64,000 nucleotides of DNA from an uncultured Spirochaetia bacterium (lineage in GTDB: Bacteria; Spirochaetota; Spirochaetia; SZUA-6; Bin103), in contig CATQHW010000003.1 of the NCBI GenBank assembly GCA_958296075.1, positions 496,001 through 560,000 of the forward strand. Reading direction: 5' to 3'. The position numbers and the translations under genes were made by a program. This document shows, piece after piece, positions 1-11,869 of this stretch; position 1 is the stretch's first letter; every line of letters starts with the position of its first letter. Under the pieces are notes generated by a model, which saw only the letters and a program-made list of their open reading frames with translations, was not told where the DNA came from and did no database searches.

Positions 1-316
1 GCTCGGCAAGGAGTTGACGCTGCTGGCCTGGGCGGTGGAGGACGCCGACCCGGCCCGCATTCCAGCCGCCGTCCGCAACTGGTTGGGCTTGGCGCCGGAA
101 GAGCGCTGGTGGCTGTATACGATGACCAACGCGGCGACCGGTCATGCCCTCCACGGCCGCAACAAGGGCTGGCGCAAGGCGGTGCGCTACGCCCTCACCG
201 AGAACCCGGTGACCGACAGCCGCGAGCGGCCGGCGGAGCTGTTCCGCTTGGTCGCCGACCACGACGGCGGCGCCAACGGCCGCGGCAGTCGCAAGGCGAC
301 CGCCGCGGCGCCGTGA
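1..316 (+). CDS. C-terminal part of a DUF3780-like anti-phage-associated protein (5' end outside window)
   Basis: Open frame runs in from the window edge (GKELTLLAWAVEDADPARIPAAVRNWLGLAPEERWWLYTMTNAATGH...GKGWRKAVRYALTENPV); stop overlaps the GTG start of the DUF1156-type methylase. Family assigned from memory of DUF3780 C-termini and gene context. Confidence 0.55.
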   Translation, partial: LGKELTLLAWAVEDADPARIPAAVRNWLGLAPEERWWLYTMTNAATGHALHGRNKGWRKAVRYALTENPVTDSRERPAELFRLVADHDGGANGRGSRKATAAAP

Positions 317-3300
317 GCGCCGGGGTGAGCCAGGCGGCCGCGCAACGCGAGCTCCGCTTCGGCGAACGGGCGCCCGTCGCCGAGTGGCCCAGCTTCATCG
401 AGGTCCAGTTTCCGGTCTCCCTGCTGTCGAAGGAGAGCTACAAGGAGCGCAAGGCCAACTACAGCCAGACCCTGACCGGCTTGGGCAAGTGGTGGGGCCG
501 CAAGCCGTTGATCCTGGTGCGCGCGGTGATTCTGGGCCTGCTGCTGCCGGCATCCGGCGATCCCCGGCGAGATCGGGAGGTCTTTCTGGCGCTCCTCACC
601 ATGGACGCCGAAGGACTGCGGCGGCGGAAGAGCCGGAACATCCCGTTGCCGGAGGTGTGCCGGCGGCTCGATGACGATGAACGCCGCGCCTGGTTCGACG
701 TTGGGGAGGGTCCCCGGCTCCGGCTCAAGAAGGGCACGACCGCCGGGCAGCGGCAACGATTGCAGTTTCTGGTATTCGACCGGCTGAGCTACGACGAGAA
801 GCTCGCGTACTGCGATCGTCCCGAGCAGACCGACGGCCCTTCCCCGGCCGCGTGGGAGGCGATCAACGCCCACCTCGGCACCGCCGCGGCCAGCCTTCCC
901 GATCTGGTGCGCGAGTTGGGGCGGCGGCGGTTCGGCCAGGTTCCCCGCGTGGGCGACGCTTTCTGCGGTGGTGGCAGCGTGCCATTCGAGGCGGCCCGCA
1001 TCGGCTGCGACGCGTACGGCTCCGACCTCAACCCGGTGGCGGCGCTGCTCACCTGGGGCGCGCTCCACATCGCCGGCGGCGGCGAGCAGACGGCCGCGGC
1101 CGTGCGCGCCGCTCAAGAACGAGCTTACCGCGCGGTCGATCGGCAGATCACCGAGTGGCGCATCGAGCACAATGACGCCGGCTGGCACGCCGACGCCTTT
1201 CTCTACTGCACGGAGACCAAGTGTCCGGAGTGCGGCTGGATGGTGCCCCTGGCGCCGAGCTGGGTGATCGGGCAGAAGACCCGCACCGTGGCCGAGCTGG
1301 CGCCGCTCCCGGCGCAGCGGCGATTCGGCATTCGCATTCGCTCCGGCGTGAGCGCCGCCGCCATGGCCGCCGCCGGAGCCGGCACCGCGCGGCAGTCGCG
1401 GCTCGTCTGTCCCAATCCCGGCTGCGGGGCGTCCAGCCCCATGGCGGCGATCCGCGGCGATCGGCGCGGCGAGGGCGGTCGCGGTTACGGGCTGCGGCGC
1501 TGGGAAAGCGGTGACCTGACGCCGCGGCCCGGCGACGTATTCCAGGAGCGCCTCTACTGCGTGCGCTGGCGGCTGCCGCGCCTGGATGACCTGTTGCGGG
1601 CCGAGCAGAAGCACGAAGGATGTGGTGCGCCGCTTCCGGAGTGGGTGCCGCTCGAACGTGCGATCGGGGAGTTGAGCGCCTTTCTCGATGCCCGCGGCCG
1701 GCGCGAGCTCGCCGGCTTGCGCGCGCGCGACTGGCGGGCCGAGGATGCCGAGCTCGACGCCGCCCGCCGCGATCTGCTGAACGCCCGCCGGAACTCGGGT
1801 CCGCGCGGTCTTGAACCGTTGCGGAGCCGCGTCAGCGACCTCGAAGCGGCGCGGAAGCGGCGTGAGGCGATGGTAGCCGCGCTGGCCGCAGCGGTGCCGG
1901 CGGCGCTGTACCGCGACGCACGGGACGACGATCTGGAGCGGGAGGGCAGGGCGCTGGCCTTGCTGCGCGAGCGCTTCGCGGAGTGGCAGCGCCGGGGGTT
2001 CCTGCCGCGCCGGGCGATCGCGCCGGGAAGCGAGACCACCCGCCTGATTCGCGAGCGCGGGTGGACCCACTGGCACCACCTGTTCACGCCGCGGCAGTTG
2101 CTCACTAACGCCCTGCTCCTCAAGCAGATCGACACCGCCGCCACGGTGCACGAGCGCGTCGCCATGCTGCTCGGCGCCGCCCGCTGCGCCGACTGGAACA
2201 GCAAGCTGTCGAGATGGGACAGCGGAGTCGGCAAGGAGTTGGTCAATCAGGCCTTCTACAACCAAGCGCTGAACACGCTCGATTCATTCGGCGTCAAGGG
2301 ATTTTCAACGATCGGTAAGGCTTGGTTCGTTCGTGCTCCATCATGCAATATCGTCCGGAGCGGGACGATCGTTGCCGCGGACGCCCGCGAACAGGAGTTC
2401 AACGCAGACTTGTGGGTTACGGACCCACCATACGCAGACGCCATCAACTATCACGAACTCTCCGAAGTGTTTCTGGCATGGCATGGACGGCTCCTCACCA
2501 CCCTGTTCCCTCATTGGTACGCCGACAGCAAGCGGGCGCTGGCCGTACAGGGCGCTGATTCAGACTTCCGCCGCAGCATGGTCGAATGCTACCGAAGCCT
2601 TTCGGAACACATGCCGCAACAAGGGATGCAGGTGGTTATGTTCACGCATCAGGATCCAGCGGTCTGGGCCGATCTTGCGCTCATTCTCTGGGCTGCCGGC
2701 TTGCGGGTAACCGCCGCGTGGACCATCGCCACCGAGACGGAATCCGCCCTGAAGGAAGGCAACTACGTCCAGGGGACCGTGCTCATGGTGCTGCGCAAGC
2801 AGACGGCGGCCGACACCGCCTTCCTGGACGAAGTCGTCCCCGAAGTGGAAACCGAAGTCAAGCGGCAGCTCGCCTCGATGCACGATCTGGATGACCGCGA
2901 CGCGCCCAACTTCTCCGATGCCGACTACCAGCTCGCCGCCTATGCCGCCGCGCTTCGCGTGCTGACCAACTACCGCGCGATCGAAGACGTGGACGTATCG
3001 TACGAGCTGTCGCGCGAGCGCCGGCGCGGCGAGGCCAACCCGCTCGCCAGGATCATCGAAGACGCGGTGCGCACGGCCAGCAACTTCCTGGTTCCCATCG
3101 GCCTGCCGGCGCACGTGTGGCGCGGCTTGGCGCCGGAAGAGAAGCTCTACCTCAAGGGGCTGGAGGTGGAATCGCACGGCGACTTCCGCGCCGGCGTCTA
3201 TCAGGAGTTCGCCCGCGGCTTCGGCGTGACCGATTACCGCTCCCTGCTGCACACCGGCAAGGCCAACCGGACCCGGCTCAAGACCGCCTCCGAGCTGCAG

Positions 3301-3546
3301 CGCGCCGACCTGGCCGGCGCCGGCCTGCTGCGGCACGCCCTCTACGCCGTCTGGCAGGCCGCCGCAACCGGCGACGTGACCGACAGCCTCACGTGGCTGC
3401 ATACGGAGGTCACCGACTACTGGCCCCAGCGCGAGGCCCTGAGCGCCATCCTGCGCTGCCTCGCGGCGTTCGACATCGATCACTGGCGCGCGGATGCGGA
3501 TGCCGCCCGCCTGCTGGCCGGCGCCGTGGAAAACGATCATGTCTGA
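313..3546 (+). CDS. DUF1156-type adenine-specific DNA methylase with zinc ribbons
   Basis: In-frame GTG at 313 overlapping the previous stop; KANYSQTLTGLGKWWGRKPLILVRAVILG N-terminus, AFCGGGSVPFEAARIGCDAYGSDLNPVA SAM motif, CPECGW and CPNPGCG Zn-ribbon motifs, WVTDPPYADAINYHELSEVFLAW catalytic DPPY motif. Confidence 0.85.
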   Translation: MSAGVSQAAAQRELRFGERAPVAEWPSFIEVQFPVSLLSKESYKERKANYSQTLTGLGKWWGRKPLILVRAVILGLLLPASGDPRRDREVFLALLTMDAEGLRRRKSRNIPLPEVCRRLDDDERRAWFDVGEGPRLRLKKGTTAGQRQRLQFLVFDRLSYDEKLAYCDRPEQTDGPSPAAWEAINAHLGTAAASLPDLVRELGRRRFGQVPRVGDAFCGGGSVPFEAARIGCDAYGSDLNPVAALLTWGALHIAGGGEQTAAAVRAAQERAYRAVDRQITEWRIEHNDAGWHADAFLYCTETKCPECGWMVPLAPSWVIGQKTRTVAELAPLPAQRRFGIRIRSGVSAAAMAAAGAGTARQSRLVCPNPGCGASSPMAAIRGDRRGEGGRGYGLRRWESGDLTPRPGDVFQERLYCVRWRLPRLDDLLRAEQKHEGCGAPLPEWVPLERAIGELSAFLDARGRRELAGLRARDWRAEDAELDAARRDLLNARRNSGPRGLEPLRSRVSDLEAARKRREAMVAALAAAVPAALYRDARDDDLEREGRALALLRERFAEWQRRGFLPRRAIAPGSETTRLIRERGWTHWHHLFTPRQLLTNALLLKQIDTAATVHERVAMLLGAARCADWNSKLSRWDSGVGKELVNQAFYNQALNTLDSFGVKGFSTIGKAWFVRAPSCNIVRSGTIVAADAREQEFNADLWVTDPPYADAINYHELSEVFLAWHGRLLTTLFPHWYADSKRALAVQGADSDFRRSMVECYRSLSEHMPQQGMQVVMFTHQDPAVWADLALILWAAGLRVTAAWTIATETESALKEGNYVQGTVLMVLRKQTAADTAFLDEVVPEVETEVKRQLASMHDLDDRDAPNFSDADYQLAAYAAALRVLTNYRAIEDVDVSYELSRERRRGEANPLARIIEDAVRTASNFLVPIGLPAHVWRGLAPEEKLYLKGLEVESHGDFRAGVYQEFARGFGVTDYRSLLHTGKANRTRLKTASELQRADLAGAGLLRHALYAVWQAAATGDVTDSLTWLHTEVTDYWPQREALSAILRCLAAFDIDHWRADADAARLLAGAVENDHV

Positions 3547-6457
3547 GCTCGCCGCGCCCCTGCGCCGGGCGCTGGAACGGACCGGCTACCTGACCGGCGC
3601 CGAGCCGGCGGCCGCCAGTGTCCGGCTCGCCGGTGGCGGCGACTTGCTTCGACCCCCTTCGTTCGCACCCGATGCGTGGTGGCGGAGCAACCCGGAAGCG
3701 ACGGCGCAGCACGGCAGCGCCGACCTCAAGGTGTACTTCAAGTTCGTCGCCGAACCGGACGCCGTGCCGGTGGCGGAGTGGCAGCAGGAGGTCTGGAACC
3801 AGGGCTTCTGCCCGCTGCTGTGGCTGGTGTCGCCGCACCGGATCGACCTCTACAACGGTTTCGGCCGGCCGCAGCGATCCGAAGACGCCGCACAGAACCG
3901 CCTCGATACCTTTCGCCTCGTGGACGACGAGCTGGCGCGGCTCGACCGGTTGGCCGGACGCCTGGCCATGGAGACCGGCCAATTCTGGCGGCAACGGCCG
4001 GGGGTAGACCGCGCGTCGGCGGTCGACCGCCAGTTGCTCCGCGATCTTGCCGCGCTCAAGAGTGACCTGGAGGATTCCGGGCTCGCTGCCGCGCCAGCGC
4101 AGGCGCTCATCGGCCGCTCGATCTTCACGCAGTACCTGATCGATCGACAGATCGTGGACCGGGAGCGCCTGGAGCGGATCTGCGGGCACGGCGAGTTGCC
4201 GAGCGTGCTGCAGGATCGCTCCGCAACCGCGCGGTTGTTCGACTGGCTGCGCGAGATCTTCAACGGCGACATGTTCCCGAGCGGGGCGCCGGTTCCCTCC
4301 GCCGCGCATCGCGGCCGCGTGCGCGACTTCCTCACGGCGACCGATCCGGTGACCGGCCAACGCTCCCTGTTCCCCTACCGCTTCGACGTCATCCCCGTGG
4401 AGCTGATCAGCGCCATATACGAACAATTCGTCCACTCCACCGGCGCCACGGGGCGGCGGGCCGACGTCCACTACACGCCGCTCACCGCCGTTTCGCTGGT
4501 GCTGGACGAGGTGTTCGACCGCCTGACCGGCGCCGAACGGGTCCTCGATCTGACCTGCGGCTCCGGCGTCTTCCTGGTCGAGGCGCTGCGCCGGCTGGTC
4601 TATCGGCAGTCCGGCGGCGGTGTCCCGACCCGGGCGGCGATCCGCCGGACGCTGCATGAACAGGTCTACGGCGTGGACCTCAGCCCGGAGGCGGTGAGTA
4701 TCGCGGCGTTCAGCCTCTATCTGGCGGCACTGGAACTCGATCCCGACCCGCGCGCCGCCGACGTCAGATTCCAGCCACTGGTAGGCCGCACGCTGCGGGC
4801 CGGCGATGCGTTCCACGTCGACCTGGGATCGGCGAAGTTCGACCTCATAGTCGGCAATCCGCCGTGGAGCTACCAGGGACGGGCGGGGACCGGCGCCCGC
4901 CGCCTGCGCGCTGCGGGCACGCCTCAGTCGCCGCGCGGACGGAGCCTGGACTTCGTGCGGCGCGCCATGGAGTTCGCCCACGACCGGACCAGATTCGGCA
5001 TGATTCTGAGCGCCACCCCCTTCTTCAGTCGGAGCGCCAACGGTCTGGCGGCCGCGCAGAGCCTGGTCGAGTCCCTCGGCCCGGTGACGCTGGTCAACCT
5101 GTCGGATCTCTCGAAGTGGTTGTTTTCAAGAGCCGATATGCCGGCCATGGCCCTGCTGTCGCGTCATTACGACCAGAAACCGGACCGGATGACGCTGGTG
5201 CAGGCCCGCTGGTCGCCGGCGGGTGAGCGAAGCCATACCATCGAAATCGCGCCATCCGACGTCACGACGCTCCCGATAGCCAGTTGGAAGCGCAACCCGG
5301 GATTGTTCAAGGCGGCGTTCCTCGGGACCCGGCAGGATCTGTTGTTGCTCGACGATCTGTGGGATAAACATGATACTCTCGAAAACCGACTCGGAACGCT
5401 CGATACCGAGCTGAGAGCCGGATTGACGTTCGGTGATCGCAGCCGCGAAGCCGGGTTCCTGAAAGGATTTTCGTTTGCCCAACGGAAAGCGATCGGTCAC
5501 TTCTCGTTGCCGATAGAGCTGCCGATCTTCGACCATGATCACGCTCAGAGGCCACGCCACAGGAAGGCATATCGTGCTCCTGTCGTTCTCGTAAACGAGT
5601 TCATGTTGAAGGAAATACCTCGCCTCGTCGTTGCGGTAGCGGAGCAGGATACCGTTTATACCGATGCATACTTCGGCGTGTCGTTTTGCGGCTCCAGGCC
5701 TGACGCGGCGTACCTCGTGGCCGGAATCCTCGGGTCCGCGCTCGCGACTTGGTACTTCCTGATGACCGGATCGGCCTTCGGTTTATGGATGCGGCGGGTC
5801 AAGCGGGCTGACATCGGCGCCTTGCCAACGTCCGAGATCGGTCATTCTTTGGGGGCCGACGCCGGGATGCGCGTCGTACGGCTTGTGCGCACGTTCCATA
5901 ATCGCGCTCCGGGTGACGACGATTGGCGGTCGCTCGACGACGCGGTATTCGATCTGTATGGGCTCGACGAGGAGGATCGCATCGTCGTGCAGGACGGATT
6001 GGCGCAGGCACGCTGGCAATGGCTGGAGGGGAAGCGGAATGCGGTCAAGCCCGCCGATGAGGCCGACCTGCAGGCATATGCGCGCGCGTTCCTCCGGACG
6101 ATGGACGTTTGGTTGTCCGCCGGCGAACGCAGACACATGCGGGCCGAAATCTATCGGCTGCCGTCTGACGCACCGCTTCGAGTCATTCGCTTCATACTGG
6201 AAGAGGGGCCTGGTCCGTCCAAAGCAGTGAAGGTCATTACGCCGGCGGGGGACCTGAGCGAGGTACTGGCCCGGATCGGTGAGCGGACCAGAGTGCAGAT
6301 CACCAAGGAGCTGGTTGGACTCCGCGACCTGCGCGTCCACGCGGAGGACGAAGTCTCGATCATCAAACCGGCGGCGCGCCGCAACTGGTTGCGCGTTCAC
6401 GCGCTGGAAGATGCCGACGGTGTGGTGAGCGCCAGCGTGTACACAAGCCCGTCGTGA
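3539..6457 (+). CDS. Eco57I/N6-adenine DNA methyltransferase-like protein
   Basis: ATG at 3539 overlapping the previous stop; VLDLTCGSGVFLVEALRRLVYR and FDLIVGNPPWSY (NPPW) motifs; 973 aa; long C-terminal specificity-like region. Confidence 0.85.
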   Translation: MSELAAPLRRALERTGYLTGAEPAAASVRLAGGGDLLRPPSFAPDAWWRSNPEATAQHGSADLKVYFKFVAEPDAVPVAEWQQEVWNQGFCPLLWLVSPHRIDLYNGFGRPQRSEDAAQNRLDTFRLVDDELARLDRLAGRLAMETGQFWRQRPGVDRASAVDRQLLRDLAALKSDLEDSGLAAAPAQALIGRSIFTQYLIDRQIVDRERLERICGHGELPSVLQDRSATARLFDWLREIFNGDMFPSGAPVPSAAHRGRVRDFLTATDPVTGQRSLFPYRFDVIPVELISAIYEQFVHSTGATGRRADVHYTPLTAVSLVLDEVFDRLTGAERVLDLTCGSGVFLVEALRRLVYRQSGGGVPTRAAIRRTLHEQVYGVDLSPEAVSIAAFSLYLAALELDPDPRAADVRFQPLVGRTLRAGDAFHVDLGSAKFDLIVGNPPWSYQGRAGTGARRLRAAGTPQSPRGRSLDFVRRAMEFAHDRTRFGMILSATPFFSRSANGLAAAQSLVESLGPVTLVNLSDLSKWLFSRADMPAMALLSRHYDQKPDRMTLVQARWSPAGERSHTIEIAPSDVTTLPIASWKRNPGLFKAAFLGTRQDLLLLDDLWDKHDTLENRLGTLDTELRAGLTFGDRSREAGFLKGFSFAQRKAIGHFSLPIELPIFDHDHAQRPRHRKAYRAPVVLVNEFMLKEIPRLVVAVAEQDTVYTDAYFGVSFCGSRPDAAYLVAGILGSALATWYFLMTGSAFGLWMRRVKRADIGALPTSEIGHSLGADAGMRVVRLVRTFHNRAPGDDDWRSLDDAVFDLYGLDEEDRIVVQDGLAQARWQWLEGKRNAVKPADEADLQAYARAFLRTMDVWLSAGERRHMRAEIYRLPSDAPLRVIRFILEEGPGPSKAVKVITPAGDLSEVLARIGERTRVQITKELVGLRDLRVHAEDEVSIIKPAARRNWLRVHALEDADGVVSASVYTSPS

Positions 6458-7128
6458 ACTTTGGTTCGCTGCCCGAGGATGTTGGCCCAAGGTTCGTCGA
6501 CATCGGGCATGAGCGTAGTATCGCGATACTGTCGATTCTGAATACCGGCTGGGGTCACGCGATGCAACTGGCCATGGTCGATGCGCGGGACGGTGAGGTC
6601 GAGATCACGGAGTGCCTCCGAATGGGGATGCGACGGGCGCTGCAAGACCGGATCGGTAGTTGGGCCAAGAGGATGACCATTCTCCCGGGCGCCGAGTCTC
6701 GCTCCGGCGCAGCCTTGAAGCCGGACGGACGAACCGATATTCCGATTCATTTCCAGGAGGTTCGCGAAGCTTACGACGACCATGACCCCCACGCGATAAT
6801 CGAGTGCAAGCGGGTTGCGGGGAATGATGCAGCGCTGTGCCGGCGCTACGTCGTCGACGGGATCGACGATCGCTTCGCCAGCGCCAAGTACGCGGGCCGG
6901 CACCGGGTGGCGTTCATGGCCGGGTACGTGCTGTCCGGCAGCGTCGACGCCGTGACGTGTCAGATCAACCGGTATCTGTCGAATCGCGGTCGCGTCGCCG
7001 AGCGCCTGGCCTCCTGCACGGTGCTGTCCGAAGCGTGGGCGCGCAGCAGCCGCCATCCCCGGCCGCAGTCTTCCGCACCGTCGATCGACCTGCACCACGC
7101 GTTCCTGACGGTTCCAGCGGCTTCCTGA
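6454..7128 (+). CDS. Predicted PD-(D/E)XK-family nuclease-like protein
   Basis: GTGA overlap with upstream methylase; GRTDIPIHF...DPHAIIECKRV pattern resembles D-x(n)-(D/E)-x-K; 224 aa. Confidence 0.5.
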   Translation: MNFGSLPEDVGPRFVDIGHERSIAILSILNTGWGHAMQLAMVDARDGEVEITECLRMGMRRALQDRIGSWAKRMTILPGAESRSGAALKPDGRTDIPIHFQEVREAYDDHDPHAIIECKRVAGNDAALCRRYVVDGIDDRFASAKYAGRHRVAFMAGYVLSGSVDAVTCQINRYLSNRGRVAERLASCTVLSEAWARSSRHPRPQSSAPSIDLHHAFLTVPAAS

Positions 7129-7141
7129 CCGGCGCGTCGCG

Positions 7142-9814
7142 GTGCTGAATCGATACTCGTCCCGCCGCCAGCGGCTCGATGCCGGGTTCCTGAACGCCCG
7201 GCTCACCGGCGCCCGCAGCTACGACCGCATCGCCGGCTATTTCTCCTCGTCGATCCTGGAAGTCGCCGGAGAGGCGCTGGAGAGCGTGCGGGGGCCGGTC
7301 CGCGTGGTCTGCAACTCGGCGCTCGCGCGGGAGGACGTGGAGGTCGCCAAGGCGGCGCAGGCGGCCATGCGCCGCGAGTGGTGCGATTCGCGCCCGGAGC
7401 TGTTGGGCGACGCGGCCAAGCCGCGCTTCGAGCGGCTCTACGAGTGGCTGCGCTCCGGCGCGGTCGAGATTCGCGTACTGCCCGATGAGGCGTTCGGCCT
7501 GATCCATGGCAAGGCCGGCGTAGTGACGCTCGCGGACGGGCGGCGCACCTCGTTCCTCGGCAGCGCGAACGAAACCGGGGCAGCGTTCCGGCTCAACTAC
7601 GAGCTGATCTGGGAGGACGATTCGCCTGAAGCGGTGGCGTGGGTCCAGGAGGAGTTCGACGCGCTCTGGTCGTCGCCCTGCGCGGTGCGCCTTGCCGACT
7701 TCGTGATCCAGGACCTGGACCGGCTGTCGCGCCGGGAATCGGTGGGGGAGGTGAGCCGCTGGCGGGAGCAGCCCGATCCCGCTTCGGTCGTGGTCGAGGC
7801 GCCGGTCTACCGCCAGGAGGTCGGGCTCTGGGAACACCAGAAGCACTTCGTGAAGCTCGCCTTCGACGCGCACCGCGGCCCGCACGGCGCGCGCTTCGTG
7901 CTGGCCGATCAGGTCGGACTGGGCAAGACCGTGCAACTGGCGATGGCGGCGCAGCTCATGGCGCTGGTGGGGGACGGGCCGGTGCTGGTGCTCGCGCCGA
8001 AGCCGTTGCTGCGGCAGTGGCAGGACGAACTCGACGCGCTGCTCGGCGTGCCGTCGGCGCTGTGGGATGGCCGCCAATGGGTGGACGAGCGCGGCGTCGA
8101 ACATCCCGGCGCCGGCGACGAGTCGATCCGGCGCTGCCCGCGCCGGGTCGGCATCGTCTCCACGGGCTTGATCACGCGCGGTTCCGAGGCGGTGGAGCGG
8201 CTGGTGAACCTGCGCTTCGAGTGCGTGATTCTGGACGAAGCGCACCGGGCGCGGCGGCGCTTCCAGGCGGGTCGGCCCGGCCGGCCGAACAACCTGCTGC
8301 TGTTCCTGCGGCGCATCTCGCCGCGTACGAAGAGCCTGCTGCTCGCTACCGCCACCCCGGTGCAGCTTCATCCCATCGAGGCGTTCGACCTGCTCGACGC
8401 GCTGGCGCAGGGTTCGGACGCGGTGCTGGGGTCGGCCGGCAGCCGCTGGCGGCAACCGCAGGCGTCGCTCGACCTGCTCATGGAGCGGACGCCGCCGCCG
8501 GCCGACTTCCACGAGCGGTGGGACTGGTTGCGCAATCCGCTGCCGCCGCGCTCGGAAGGGGCCGACTTCGAGATTCTGCGCCGGTCGCTGTCGTTGTCGG
8601 ACGAGCACGCCTACGCGCCGGGCAGCGCGGCGGACCGATTACGGCCGTCGGATCGGCTGCGTATCGAAGACGGGTTCGGGCGTTTCCTGGAGCACCACAA
8701 CCCCTACATTCGCCGCATCGTCCGGCGCACCCGCGAGTATCTCGAAACCACGGTCGACCCGGAGACCGGCGAGCCGTATCTCACGCCCGTGCGCGTGCGG
8801 CTGCATGGCGGCGCGCCGGCCGACGCGATCGCGCTGCCGCCGTTCCTCGAAGACGCCTACCAACGCGCCGAGGAGTTCTGCCGGATGCTCGCTGCGCGCG
8901 CCAACGCCGGCTTCTTCCGCACCATGCTGCTCCGCCGCATGGGCAGCACGATCGAAGCGGGCCGTCTCACGGTCGAGCGGATTCTCGCCGGCTGGCAGGC
9001 GCGCGACGACGACGAGGATGACGAGGACGGAGACGATCAGCTCCGCGCGCTGACCGGCGCGGAACGCGGCGTACTGCTGCAACTCACGCGGGCGCTGCAA
9101 GCGAACCGCGAACTCGATCCGAAGCTCGCCGCGGTCAAGCGCCTGCTCACCGCAGAAGGCTGGCTCGACCACGGCTGCATCGTCTTCAGCCAGTATTACG
9201 ACTCGGTGTGGTGGCTCGCCAACCAGCTCACGCGCGAGCTGCCGGACGAGGCGATCGGCATCTACGCCGGCGCGGACCGGTCCGGCGTGATGCGCGGCGG
9301 TCGGTTCGAGCGCACGCCGCGGGACGCGTTGAAGGACGCCGTGCGCCGCGGCGAAGTCCGGCTGCTCCTCGGTACGGAAGCGGCCTCGGAGGGGTTGAAT
9401 CTGCAGCGCCTCGGGTCGCTGATCAATCTCGACCTGCCGTGGAATCCGTCCCGCCTCGAACAACGCAAGGGGCGCATTCAACGCATCGGGCAGGTCCGCT
9501 CCGAAGTCGACGTCTACAACCTGCGCTACGCCGGATCGGTGGAGGATCGCGTTCACGAGCTGCTGTCCGAGCGTCTGGAGACCATCTCCCGGCTGTTCGG
9601 CCAAGTGCCGGACACGCTCGAAGACGTCTGGGTACAGGTTGCGTTGGGGGAAGCCGAACAGGCCAGGCAGACCATCGACGCCGTGCCGCGGCAGCACCCG
9701 TTCGACCGGCGCTACCGCCGCGAAGTCAGCCACGTCGACTGGGAGTCCTGCGCCCGCGTACTGGACGCCGCCGCCAGAAGACGAACCTTGTCCCGAGGAT
9801 GGCAGGACCGGTAA
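7142..9814 (+). CDS. Phospholipase D-like/SNF2-family helicase
   Basis: N-terminal PLD-like FGLIHGKAGVVTL...FLGSANETG; helicase motifs LADQVGLGKTVQLAMAAQ (Walker A-like), ILDEAHRARR, LLATATPVQ, GTEAASEGLNLQRL, QRKGRIQRIGQ. Confidence 0.9.
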   Translation: MLNRYSSRRQRLDAGFLNARLTGARSYDRIAGYFSSSILEVAGEALESVRGPVRVVCNSALAREDVEVAKAAQAAMRREWCDSRPELLGDAAKPRFERLYEWLRSGAVEIRVLPDEAFGLIHGKAGVVTLADGRRTSFLGSANETGAAFRLNYELIWEDDSPEAVAWVQEEFDALWSSPCAVRLADFVIQDLDRLSRRESVGEVSRWREQPDPASVVVEAPVYRQEVGLWEHQKHFVKLAFDAHRGPHGARFVLADQVGLGKTVQLAMAAQLMALVGDGPVLVLAPKPLLRQWQDELDALLGVPSALWDGRQWVDERGVEHPGAGDESIRRCPRRVGIVSTGLITRGSEAVERLVNLRFECVILDEAHRARRRFQAGRPGRPNNLLLFLRRISPRTKSLLLATATPVQLHPIEAFDLLDALAQGSDAVLGSAGSRWRQPQASLDLLMERTPPPADFHERWDWLRNPLPPRSEGADFEILRRSLSLSDEHAYAPGSAADRLRPSDRLRIEDGFGRFLEHHNPYIRRIVRRTREYLETTVDPETGEPYLTPVRVRLHGGAPADAIALPPFLEDAYQRAEEFCRMLAARANAGFFRTMLLRRMGSTIEAGRLTVERILAGWQARDDDEDDEDGDDQLRALTGAERGVLLQLTRALQANRELDPKLAAVKRLLTAEGWLDHGCIVFSQYYDSVWWLANQLTRELPDEAIGIYAGADRSGVMRGGRFERTPRDALKDAVRRGEVRLLLGTEAASEGLNLQRLGSLINLDLPWNPSRLEQRKGRIQRIGQVRSEVDVYNLRYAGSVEDRVHELLSERLETISRLFGQVPDTLEDVWVQVALGEAEQARQTIDAVPRQHPFDRRYRREVSHVDWESCARVLDAAARRRTLSRGWQDR
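9191..9579. repeat. Direct repeat copy 1 (within PLD-SNF2 helicase gene)
   Basis: Matches 11071-11459 with 5 mismatches in 389 nt by eye. Confidence 0.95.
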
Positions 9815-9847
9815 CCGGCCCGTCGCCGGGTCCGCTGCGCCGGTGAA

Positions 9848-11029
9848 CTACTCCGCCGGCGGGGCGGGACCGCCGGGGGTGGCGACCATGGCCAGATGCG
9901 CCAGCAGGGACGGGATGCCGGGCTCGTAGCCGCCGTCCTTCGGCCACACGACGCCGCGGGCGACCAGCCCCCGGAGCGCCTCCCTGGCTTTCGCCCCGCT
10001 TCCGTCCGGCGCGGCGGCCAGGGCATTCACCAGTTGGAGGCGTTCCATCTTCTTATCCTTCGCGTTAACGAACTCCCGGGCAGCCGCCGCGGCGTACTCA
10101 AGCAGCTCCGCATCGTCCAACTCGTCGATGCGGCTGCCGTAGAAGGCGTTCTTGATCGGCCCGAACGACTCAAGGGTCCGCTTGGCGACCGCGTCGTCCA
10201 CGCGCCGCGCGCCGTTCCGGTTCAGCGCCATCACGATGGCGTGGCCCACCTCCTGGAGAAAATAGGGATACCGGTCCGCCGTCTCCAGTACCCTCACCAA
10301 GGCGTCTTCGTCGGCCTCGACGCCCAGCTCTCCGAGCGGCCTCATCAACGCAGCCCGGTCCTCGCCCGGATCAAGCCGCCCGACCGGCACACGCCGGGAT
10401 CGCTCCCAGTGGCTGGTCTCCATCGCTTGCAGCGCGTGTTGAATCCCCGGCGTCCCGGCCAGCACGAGCAGGAAGGGGGCGCCCTTCCCGCGAATGCTCT
10501 GGGAGGCGTCCAGCAGCCCGCCTCCCATCTCCGGGTCCAGCACGTGCGCCTCGTCCACCAGCAGGGCCAACGGTCCTGCGGCGCAGCGGGTCGCCAGCAT
10601 CTGCTCCACGGACGGCCCTGGTGACCGGTCCAGGTCGAGCTTGACGCCGAACAGAGACAGGCGGCTGAGCGAGACGCCGGACTGCTCCGACAGGCGGCGT
10701 ACGGCGCCGTGCCAGCCGTCGTACGGGGCCAGCGCCTTCTCCAGCGCTTCCCTGGACGCCGCCGCGCCCTTGGCGGTCGCCTGCACCACGGCCGCGCCGG
10801 CCTGCTGCATGCGGTCGCCGATGACTTTCAGCAGTACGGTCTTGCCGTTGCCGCGCGGGCCGTACAGGATGACGTTCGCGCTTGGGGAACGCTTCGCCCG
10901 GAGGTCGGCCGCCATCGGCTCCACGGCCTCCAACTCCCGGTTCCGTCCCGCCAAGTACGGGGGGAGGTCACCGTCGCCGGGTCTGAACAGGTTGGAGGGG
11001 TACATCGACCGGATCGGCTTGATGTCCAT
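9848..11029 (-). CDS. AAA/STAND-like ATP-binding protein
   Basis: ILYGPRGNGKTVLLKVIG Walker A, LALLVDEAHVLD Walker B; 393 aa. Confidence 0.8.
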   Translation of the reverse strand: MDIKPIRSMYPSNLFRPGDGDLPPYLAGRNRELEAVEPMAADLRAKRSPSANVILYGPRGNGKTVLLKVIGDRMQQAGAAVVQATAKGAAASREALEKALAPYDGWHGAVRRLSEQSGVSLSRLSLFGVKLDLDRSPGPSVEQMLATRCAAGPLALLVDEAHVLDPEMGGGLLDASQSIRGKGAPFLLVLAGTPGIQHALQAMETSHWERSRRVPVGRLDPGEDRAALMRPLGELGVEADEDALVRVLETADRYPYFLQEVGHAIVMALNRNGARRVDDAVAKRTLESFGPIKNAFYGSRIDELDDAELLEYAAAAAREFVNAKDKKMERLQLVNALAAAPDGSGAKAREALRGLVARGVVWPKDGGYEPGIPSLLAHLAMVATPGGPAPPAE

Positions 11030-11070
11030 CCCTGAGCCTCCTCGACAGCTATCCTATCGTATCGGGGCTT

Positions 11071-11459
11071 CAGGAATACGACTCGGTGTGGTGGCTCGCC
11101 GACCAGCTCACGCGCGAGCTGCCGGACGAGGCGATCGGCATCTACGCCGGCGCGGACCGGTCCGGCGTGATGCGCGGCGGTCGGTTCGAGCGCACGCCGC
11201 GGGACGCGTTGAAGGACGCCGTGCGCCGCGGCGAAGTCCGGCTGCTCCTCGGTACGGAAGCGGCCTCGGAAGGGTTGAATCTGCAGCGCCTCGGGTCGCT
11301 GATCAATCTCGACCTGCCGTGGAATCCGTCCCGCCTCGAACAACGCAAGGGGCGCATTCAACGCACCGGGCAGGTCCGCTCCGAAGTCGACGTCTACAAC
11401 CTGCGCTACGCCGGATCGGTGGAGGATCGCGTTCACGAGCTGCTGTCCGAGCGTCTGGA
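11071..11459 (+). pseudogene. Direct repeat copy 2: truncated helicase fragment
   Basis: Nearly identical to 9191-9579; retains the helicase frame (YDSVWWLADQLTRELPDEAIG...VHELLSERLDR*) but lacks the rest of the gene. Confidence 0.92.
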
Positions 11460-11462
11460 CCG

Positions 11463-11510
11463 ATAGCCGGCCGTCCTCCTTGGGCCACACCACGCCACGG
11501 GCGACCAGCC
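11463..11510 (-). pseudogene. Fragment of the 3' end of an AAA ATPase gene (paralogue of 9848-11029)
   Basis: ccgtcctccttgggccacaccacgccacgggcgaccagcccccgg resembles ccgtccttcggccacacgacgccgcgggcgaccagcccccgg at ~9931-9973 (codes LVARGVVWPKDGG on minus strand). Confidence 0.7.
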
Positions 11511-11542
11511 CCCGGGCGCGCCCGCCCGGCGTCCGGCCCGCT

Positions 11543-11869
11543 TCAGTCGCAGCCGGTGGCGCGAGCGAGGGCGAGACAGATCCGTAGCATCTTGCTCGCC
11601 GGGACGCGTCCGATGAACCGGCTCAGCCGTGTCTTGTCGACGGTCTGCACGTGATCGAGATTGGCAGCCGAGGCGCGCTTAAGCCCGTCGTCTATGCCGA
11701 CCTCCACTTCGGCGGGGGAACCGTGGATGGTCGAGGTTATGGGCGCGACCATCACGGTGCGCAACAGCGGGATTACCTCCTGCCTGCTGATGATCACCAC
11801 CGGCCGCCGTTTATCCGGCGCCTTGAACGTGTACTGCCAGATCTCGCCCCGATTCAGCTTCCCGGCCAC
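11543..11869 (-). CDS. mazF: MazF/PemK-family toxin (endoribonuclease)
   Basis: LNRGEIWQYTFKAPDKRRPVVIISRQEVIPLLRTVMVAPITSTIHGSPAEV...DHVQTVDKTRLSRFIG. Confidence 0.88.
   Translation of the reverse strand: MAGKLNRGEIWQYTFKAPDKRRPVVIISRQEVIPLLRTVMVAPITSTIHGSPAEVEVGIDDGLKRASAANLDHVQTVDKTRLSRFIGRVPASKMLRICLALARATGCD

Follow-up and report, generated by a model that had tools for sequence, protein, structure and literature searches.

A predicted methylase-nuclease cassette nested within a Type-2 BREX-related operon of an uncultured Spirochaetia bacterium

The operon described here combines a known defence system with what appears to be a new arrangement. The known part is a Type-2 BREX-related (BR) operon; the new part is a putative two-gene restriction cassette nested in it, consisting of a predicted N6-adenine methylase (MT2) and a predicted nuclease (NUC) that lie between the DUF1156 methylase gene and the PLD-helicase gene. 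We consider it probable (roughly 70%) that MT2-NUC is an autonomous restriction-modification (RM) cassette that was inserted at this point, with activities predicted from the proteins. The gene content and the recurrence of the pair are well supported by sequence comparison, and the biochemical roles and any coupling to the host operon are presumed.

Locus and operon layout

The window, i.e., the whole stretch of 64,000 nucleotides that was analysed, covers positions 496001-560000 of contig C3 in a genome assembly of 4.05 Mb and five contigs (G000). Its left neighbour was read as locus L009, and a window position equals the L009 position minus 12000. The operon comprises six genes in the order DUF499 ATPase, DUF3780, DUF1156 methylase, MT2, NUC and PLD-helicase, all on the same strand (Table 1); five of these co-directional genes are held by the window, the last ending at 9814, and the DUF499 gene lies just to its left. 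A preceding sequence-only reading had described five co-directional genes with overlapping junctions and a 13-nt gap, with which the coordinates agree, and had expected an ATPase such as DUF499 left of the window, where the leftward extension indeed shows DUF499, joined to DUF3780 by an ATGA overlap. DUF3780 and DUF1156 meet in a GTGA (stop 314-316, GTG at 313), DUF1156 and MT2 overlap by 8 nt (stop 3544-3546, ATG at 3539; an alternative MT2 start, the upstream ATG at 3494, was judged less likely), MT2 and NUC again meet in a GTGA (stop 6455-6457, GTG at 6454), and 13 nt separate the end of NUC (7128) from the helicase GTG (7142). The GC3 of MT2 (0.81) and NUC (0.77) lies below that of the BR genes (0.86-0.92), which is consistent with a later arrival of the pair and is no proof of one.

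Table 1. Genes of the operon and occupants of the DUF1156/PLD-helicase junction. Positions are those of the window unless a locus is named.
Feature	Position or locus	Strand	Remark
DUF499 ATPase gene	L009 about 8553-11684	+	outside window; in-frame TAG at L009 8790-8792
DUF3780, 3' part	1..316	+	whole gene L009 11681-12316, 211 aa
DUF1156 N6-adenine DNA methylase (BR modification gene)	313..3546	+	1077 aa; NF042963, PADLOC DUF1156_MTase
MT2, Eco57I-like N6-adenine DNA methylase	3539..6457	+	972 aa; Pfam N6_Mtase, Eco57I; model
NUC, predicted PD-(D/E)XK nuclease	6454..7128	+	224 aa; residues E48, D95, E117-x-K119
PLD (HKD)-SNF2 helicase, BR effector	7142..9814	+	890 aa; NF042964, PLDc_2, SNF2, Helicase_C
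Junction cargo: MT2-NUC	window
Junction cargo: Schlafen-AlbA genes	L160, L168; remnant in L158
Junction cargo: Fic	L162
Junction cargo: VapC pair	L174
Junction cargo: AbiEii + DUF6577	L198 7683-9516, L199 9121-10949 (- strand)		two genomes, same order as window's
Junction cargo: AAA ATPase + 553-aa partner	L169

The BREX-related core

By its gene content, DUF499-DUF3780-DUF1156-PLD-helicase is a Type-2 BR system, a type described in 2026 (Rakesh and Krishnan, PMC12839542), and an anti-phage role is predicted for it. All four features of the type are present (DUF499 ATPase, stand-alone DUF3780, DUF1156 N6-methylase, HKD/PLD-SNF2 helicase), and the genes share order and strand with the system as presented in PMC12839542 (NF042961, NF042963, NF042964); the window's operon differs by the additional MT2-NUC and by the in-frame TAG in DUF499. 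The DUF1156 protein, which carries the methylase motifs FCGGGS and DPPY, scores 1302 bits with NF042963 (cut-off 1000) and reaches an E of 2e-273 with the PADLOC DUF1156_MTase profile. The helicase scores 1245 bits with NF042964 (cut-off 1100) and has a PLDc_2 domain at residues 52-176, with HxK at 122-124 and GSAN at 140-143, followed C-terminally by SNF2 and Helicase_C domains (Pfam). DUF3780, here a gene of its own, was recognised from the in-window fragment (E 1.2e-26) and from the whole gene (PF12635, 179 bits, cut-off 27), and DUF499 has its Pfam match at G000:C3:492979-493704 and, apart from the TAG interruption, can be aligned throughout with the DUF499 of 22 other Type-2 systems. The same order of DUF1156 and PLD-helicase is found in the 29 other loci compared, which comprise ten plasmid records and 19 genome loci chosen for a DUF1156 gene followed by a PLD-helicase gene. 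These matches uphold the defence operon that the sequence-only reading had named; its appeal to DISARM-like logic is not supported. DISARM does have an SNF2 helicase, a PLD domain and a methylase in common with the operon, but the helicase gives 157 bits with the DrmD model against a cut-off of 610, and neither DrmA, DrmB (DUF1998) nor DrmC was found among the operon proteins, where only sub-threshold helicase cross-matches appeared; DISARM was thus rejected.

The genome as a whole carries eight DUF1156 methylase loci (L010-L016; G000 C2:344103, C1:179635, C2:1186066, C3:496406, C2:1318830, C1:384177, C3:908489 and C1:306119) together with five DUF499 loci by Pfam, and is thus heavily loaded with BR-type systems for its 4 Mb.

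Properties of MT2 and NUC

MT2 contains CGSGVF and NPPW, in line with the CGSGxF and NPPW motifs of N6-adenine methylases; together with the NF042963 match of DUF1156 and the N6_Mtase and Eco57I matches of MT2, this agrees with the two adenine methylases proposed earlier. The AlphaFold model of MT2 (pLDDT 84) has structural matches to CamA, M.BseCI, BpuSI, DrdV, BrxX and MmeI. An N6-adenine methylase core with a large target-recognition region is also found in Type II/IIG/IIL RM enzymes (MmeI, BpuSI, DrdV; PADLOC REase_MTase_IIG), but the N-terminal domain of MT2 has no conserved D...E-x-K before residue 300 in 31 aligned rows, and the presumed nuclease is a separate protein, NUC; the interpretation of MT2 as a fused type IIG/IIL restriction-methylase was rejected on the lack of this nuclease motif. 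BREX PglX/BrxX resembles most of the MT2 model in fold (TM 0.46 by query), but at 11-12% identity, and the assignment of MT2 to this family was also rejected, its score being 41 bits against an NCBIfam cut-off of 400.

For NUC, residues E48, D95, E117, K119 and H215 are invariant in 61 aligned proteins, the most distant of them only 13% identical to the window's copy. In the AlphaFold model (pLDDT 89), which has an alpha-beta core, E48 opens a long helix, D95 precedes a strand, and the strand after that contains E117-x-K119. This is the layout expected of PD-(D/E)XK nucleases, for which a helical E and a conserved D and E-x-K are typical. Three relatives of NUC match PDDEXK_9 weakly in Pfam; the window's NUC has no Pfam match of its own and no named family in the libraries searched. 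It had no match in phage records and none by sequence search among solved structures, and Foldseek with the model returned nothing significant among solved structures or viral models, so that both the PD-(D/E)XK fold and the nuclease function are predicted from the conserved residues, the model topology and the three weak Pfam matches. With D...E-x-K common to 61 of 61 aligned proteins, the nuclease suspected from the window's letters stands as a predicted one.

MT2-NUC as a separate unit

Relatives of MT2 were collected by a scan of one genome per species, from which the best 80 of at least 318 were kept. At 45-52% identity, the nearest of these 80 belong to Pseudomonadota, Chloroflexota and a Longimicrobiales genome; in every one of them, MT2 is followed immediately by a NUC relative. 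An open reading frame of 195-265 aa adjoins the MT2 end in 66 of the 77 relatives whose MT2 frame is intact, these being drawn from the best 80 of at least 318, and often overlaps it by 1 or 4 nt; about half of the other 11 end at a contig edge or are truncated. DUF1156 or DUF499 was seen near two of the 80 only, in flanks that reached 10 kb at the longest and were often shorter, so that 78 of the 80 relatives kept from the at least 318, which span many phyla, have the pair without BR genes in these flanks. Plasmid copies are found in Agrobacterium, Bradyrhizobium, Ciceribacter, Methylobacterium, Sagittula and Pseudomonas; the annotation around them shows no BR gene. Some stand-alone copies are preceded by a regulator gene (MerR-like, LexA-like or another helix-turn-helix type). 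MT2-NUC is a widespread two-gene cassette of a predicted methylase and a predicted nuclease.

G001, a genome from the family to which the window's genome also belongs, has an intact MT2-NUC that is 67-70% identical to the window's pair and is flanked by the last codons of DUF1156 (LVAGAVENDHV) and by broken pieces of the helicase gene. Since G001 keeps MT2-NUC between these remnants, it is very likely that the common ancestor of the two genomes already had the nested arrangement, and that the BR genes were the first to be lost in G001. The sequence-only reading had coupled both methylases with the nuclease, which these comparisons do not support: NUC goes with MT2, and the pair stands alone in many phyla and outlasts the BR genes in G001.

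Recurrence within BREX-related operons and a cargo slot

Copies embedded in BR operons are rare among the MT2 relatives listed, and were found in three settings: the window's lineage, L047 and L083. L047, from a Longimicrobiales genome, is a Type-1 BR (Hma) operon with matches to HmaA, HmaB and HmaC; this type has related DUF499, DUF1156 and SNF2 helicase proteins, and according to PMC12839542 it lacks DUF3780 and the PLD domain and carries a nuclease at the helicase C-terminus. L083, from Desulfobacteraceae, is called Type-3-like for its combination of DUF1156, a DUF499-like ATPase, a PLD-less helicase and a weak match to PglZ; a repressor gene precedes the pair there. In a tree of 81 MT2 proteins the label 'BR-embedded' changes three times, at least two of these changes being forced by well-supported branches, which supports repeated entry of MT2-NUC into BR operons, with at least two independent events among few cases. 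In two different genomes, the helicase gene of a Type-1 BR operon has a small gene as its neighbour (L047 7480-8241, L014 11043-11426); in L047 it is aspartyl-protease-like (Pfam), and the L014 gene has a similar N-terminus.

The insertion point is not peculiar to this cassette. Among 30 Type-2 BR loci with DUF1156 and helicase both in view, the window included, 21 have the two genes side by side and nine have them apart, and the junction is, judged by these comparisons, a cargo slot whose occupants are mostly toxin-type or toxin-antitoxin genes (Table 1). The DUF3780/DUF1156 junction is also often filled (Fic confirmed; other occupants named by eye). The kinds of genes in the slot suggest that the cargo may also penalise loss of the operon.

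Interpretation and alternatives

In the autonomous-cassette reading, the BR core would label the cell's own DNA through DUF1156 and would use DUF499 and the PLD-helicase to restrict DNA that is unmarked, following the model published in PMC12839542. MT2 would methylate adenine at sites of its own and thereby protect them, and NUC would cut those sites when unmethylated; as NUC consists of hardly more than a nuclease core, its specificity would probably come from MT2. The cassette is probably translated from the same message as the BR genes and would add a second, independent restriction layer. Against full autonomy, close overlaps are equally what one would see with an MT2-NUC pair absorbed into the working BR machine. 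MT2 and NUC would then be integrated subunits of one machine with two methylase specificities and an added nuclease effector, as in the sequence-only reading and in the auxiliary-effector model of PMC12839542, which counts PD-(D/E)XK nucleases found in BREX and BR loci among the auxiliary effectors and already reports auxiliary and backup nucleases within BR-type loci; an extra methylase-nuclease pair is not among the cases that we found described there. The unbroken run of co-directional overlaps and the lack of a regulator gene in front of the window's MT2, unlike some stand-alone copies, fit such integration, but the occurrence of the pair away from BR genes, also on plasmids, its retention in G001 and the empty junction of most of the BR operons compared make it unlikely.

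Another possibility, also rather doubtful, is that the nested pair acts mainly as an addiction module, harming cells that lose or break the operon, with any anti-phage effect being secondary. The same slot elsewhere holds VapC, AbiEii, Fic and Schlafen-type genes, which can poison the cell that carries them; in G001 the pair has survived the BR genes, and in the window it is intact next to an interrupted DUF499. However, protection against phage is also what an ordinary RM pair provides, so the two roles can coexist, and G001 shows that the pair did not prevent decay of the BR core there. It is improbable, finally, that the whole locus is a decaying, inactive island with reading frames as relics, for which the TAG, a duplication of the helicase tail at 11071-11459 and the change of frame in two other DUF1156 genes of the genome (L015, L016) could be cited. 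Five of the six operon genes are full length and contain the motifs searched for, and frame changes in an assembly may stem from sequencing errors. The TAG, which could itself be an assembly error, lies ahead of the P-loop at residues that vary in other DUF499 copies, with conserved sequence resuming on either side, and a restart at a GTG two codons past it would keep the P-loop domain.

In the favoured, autonomous-cassette reading, this TAG suggests that the BR core is impaired in this assembly or depends on that restart, with the cassette intact.

The duplicated helicase piece measures 389 nt (window 9191-9579, 98.7% identity to the repeat) and is probably a remnant of tandem duplication; between the two copies lies a convergent AAA ATPase gene (9848-11029, - strand), and a fragment from the 3' end of this ATPase gene comes after the repeat. 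A PemK/MazF-like toxin gene (Pfam E 4.5e-19) lies nearby at 11543-11869 on the - strand.

Significance

The autonomous-cassette reading would place a modular restriction cassette, with overlapping genes, in the middle of the operon of another defence system, at one exact Type-2 BR junction that takes varied, mostly self-toxic cargo. It also brings to light a widespread cassette of a predicted methylase and a predicted nuclease, the latter without a named family in the libraries searched. A broader and tentative idea, which we hold to be rather unlikely, is that internal slots of BR operons favour self-toxic modules (restriction pairs, toxin-antitoxin pairs, Fic and Schlafen-type genes) so that breakage of the operon harms the cell, MT2-NUC being an RM-type guard that entered at least twice independently. 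The arrangement thus raises the testable question of whether defence operons are layered by nested modules, and whether such modules may guard their host operon against loss.
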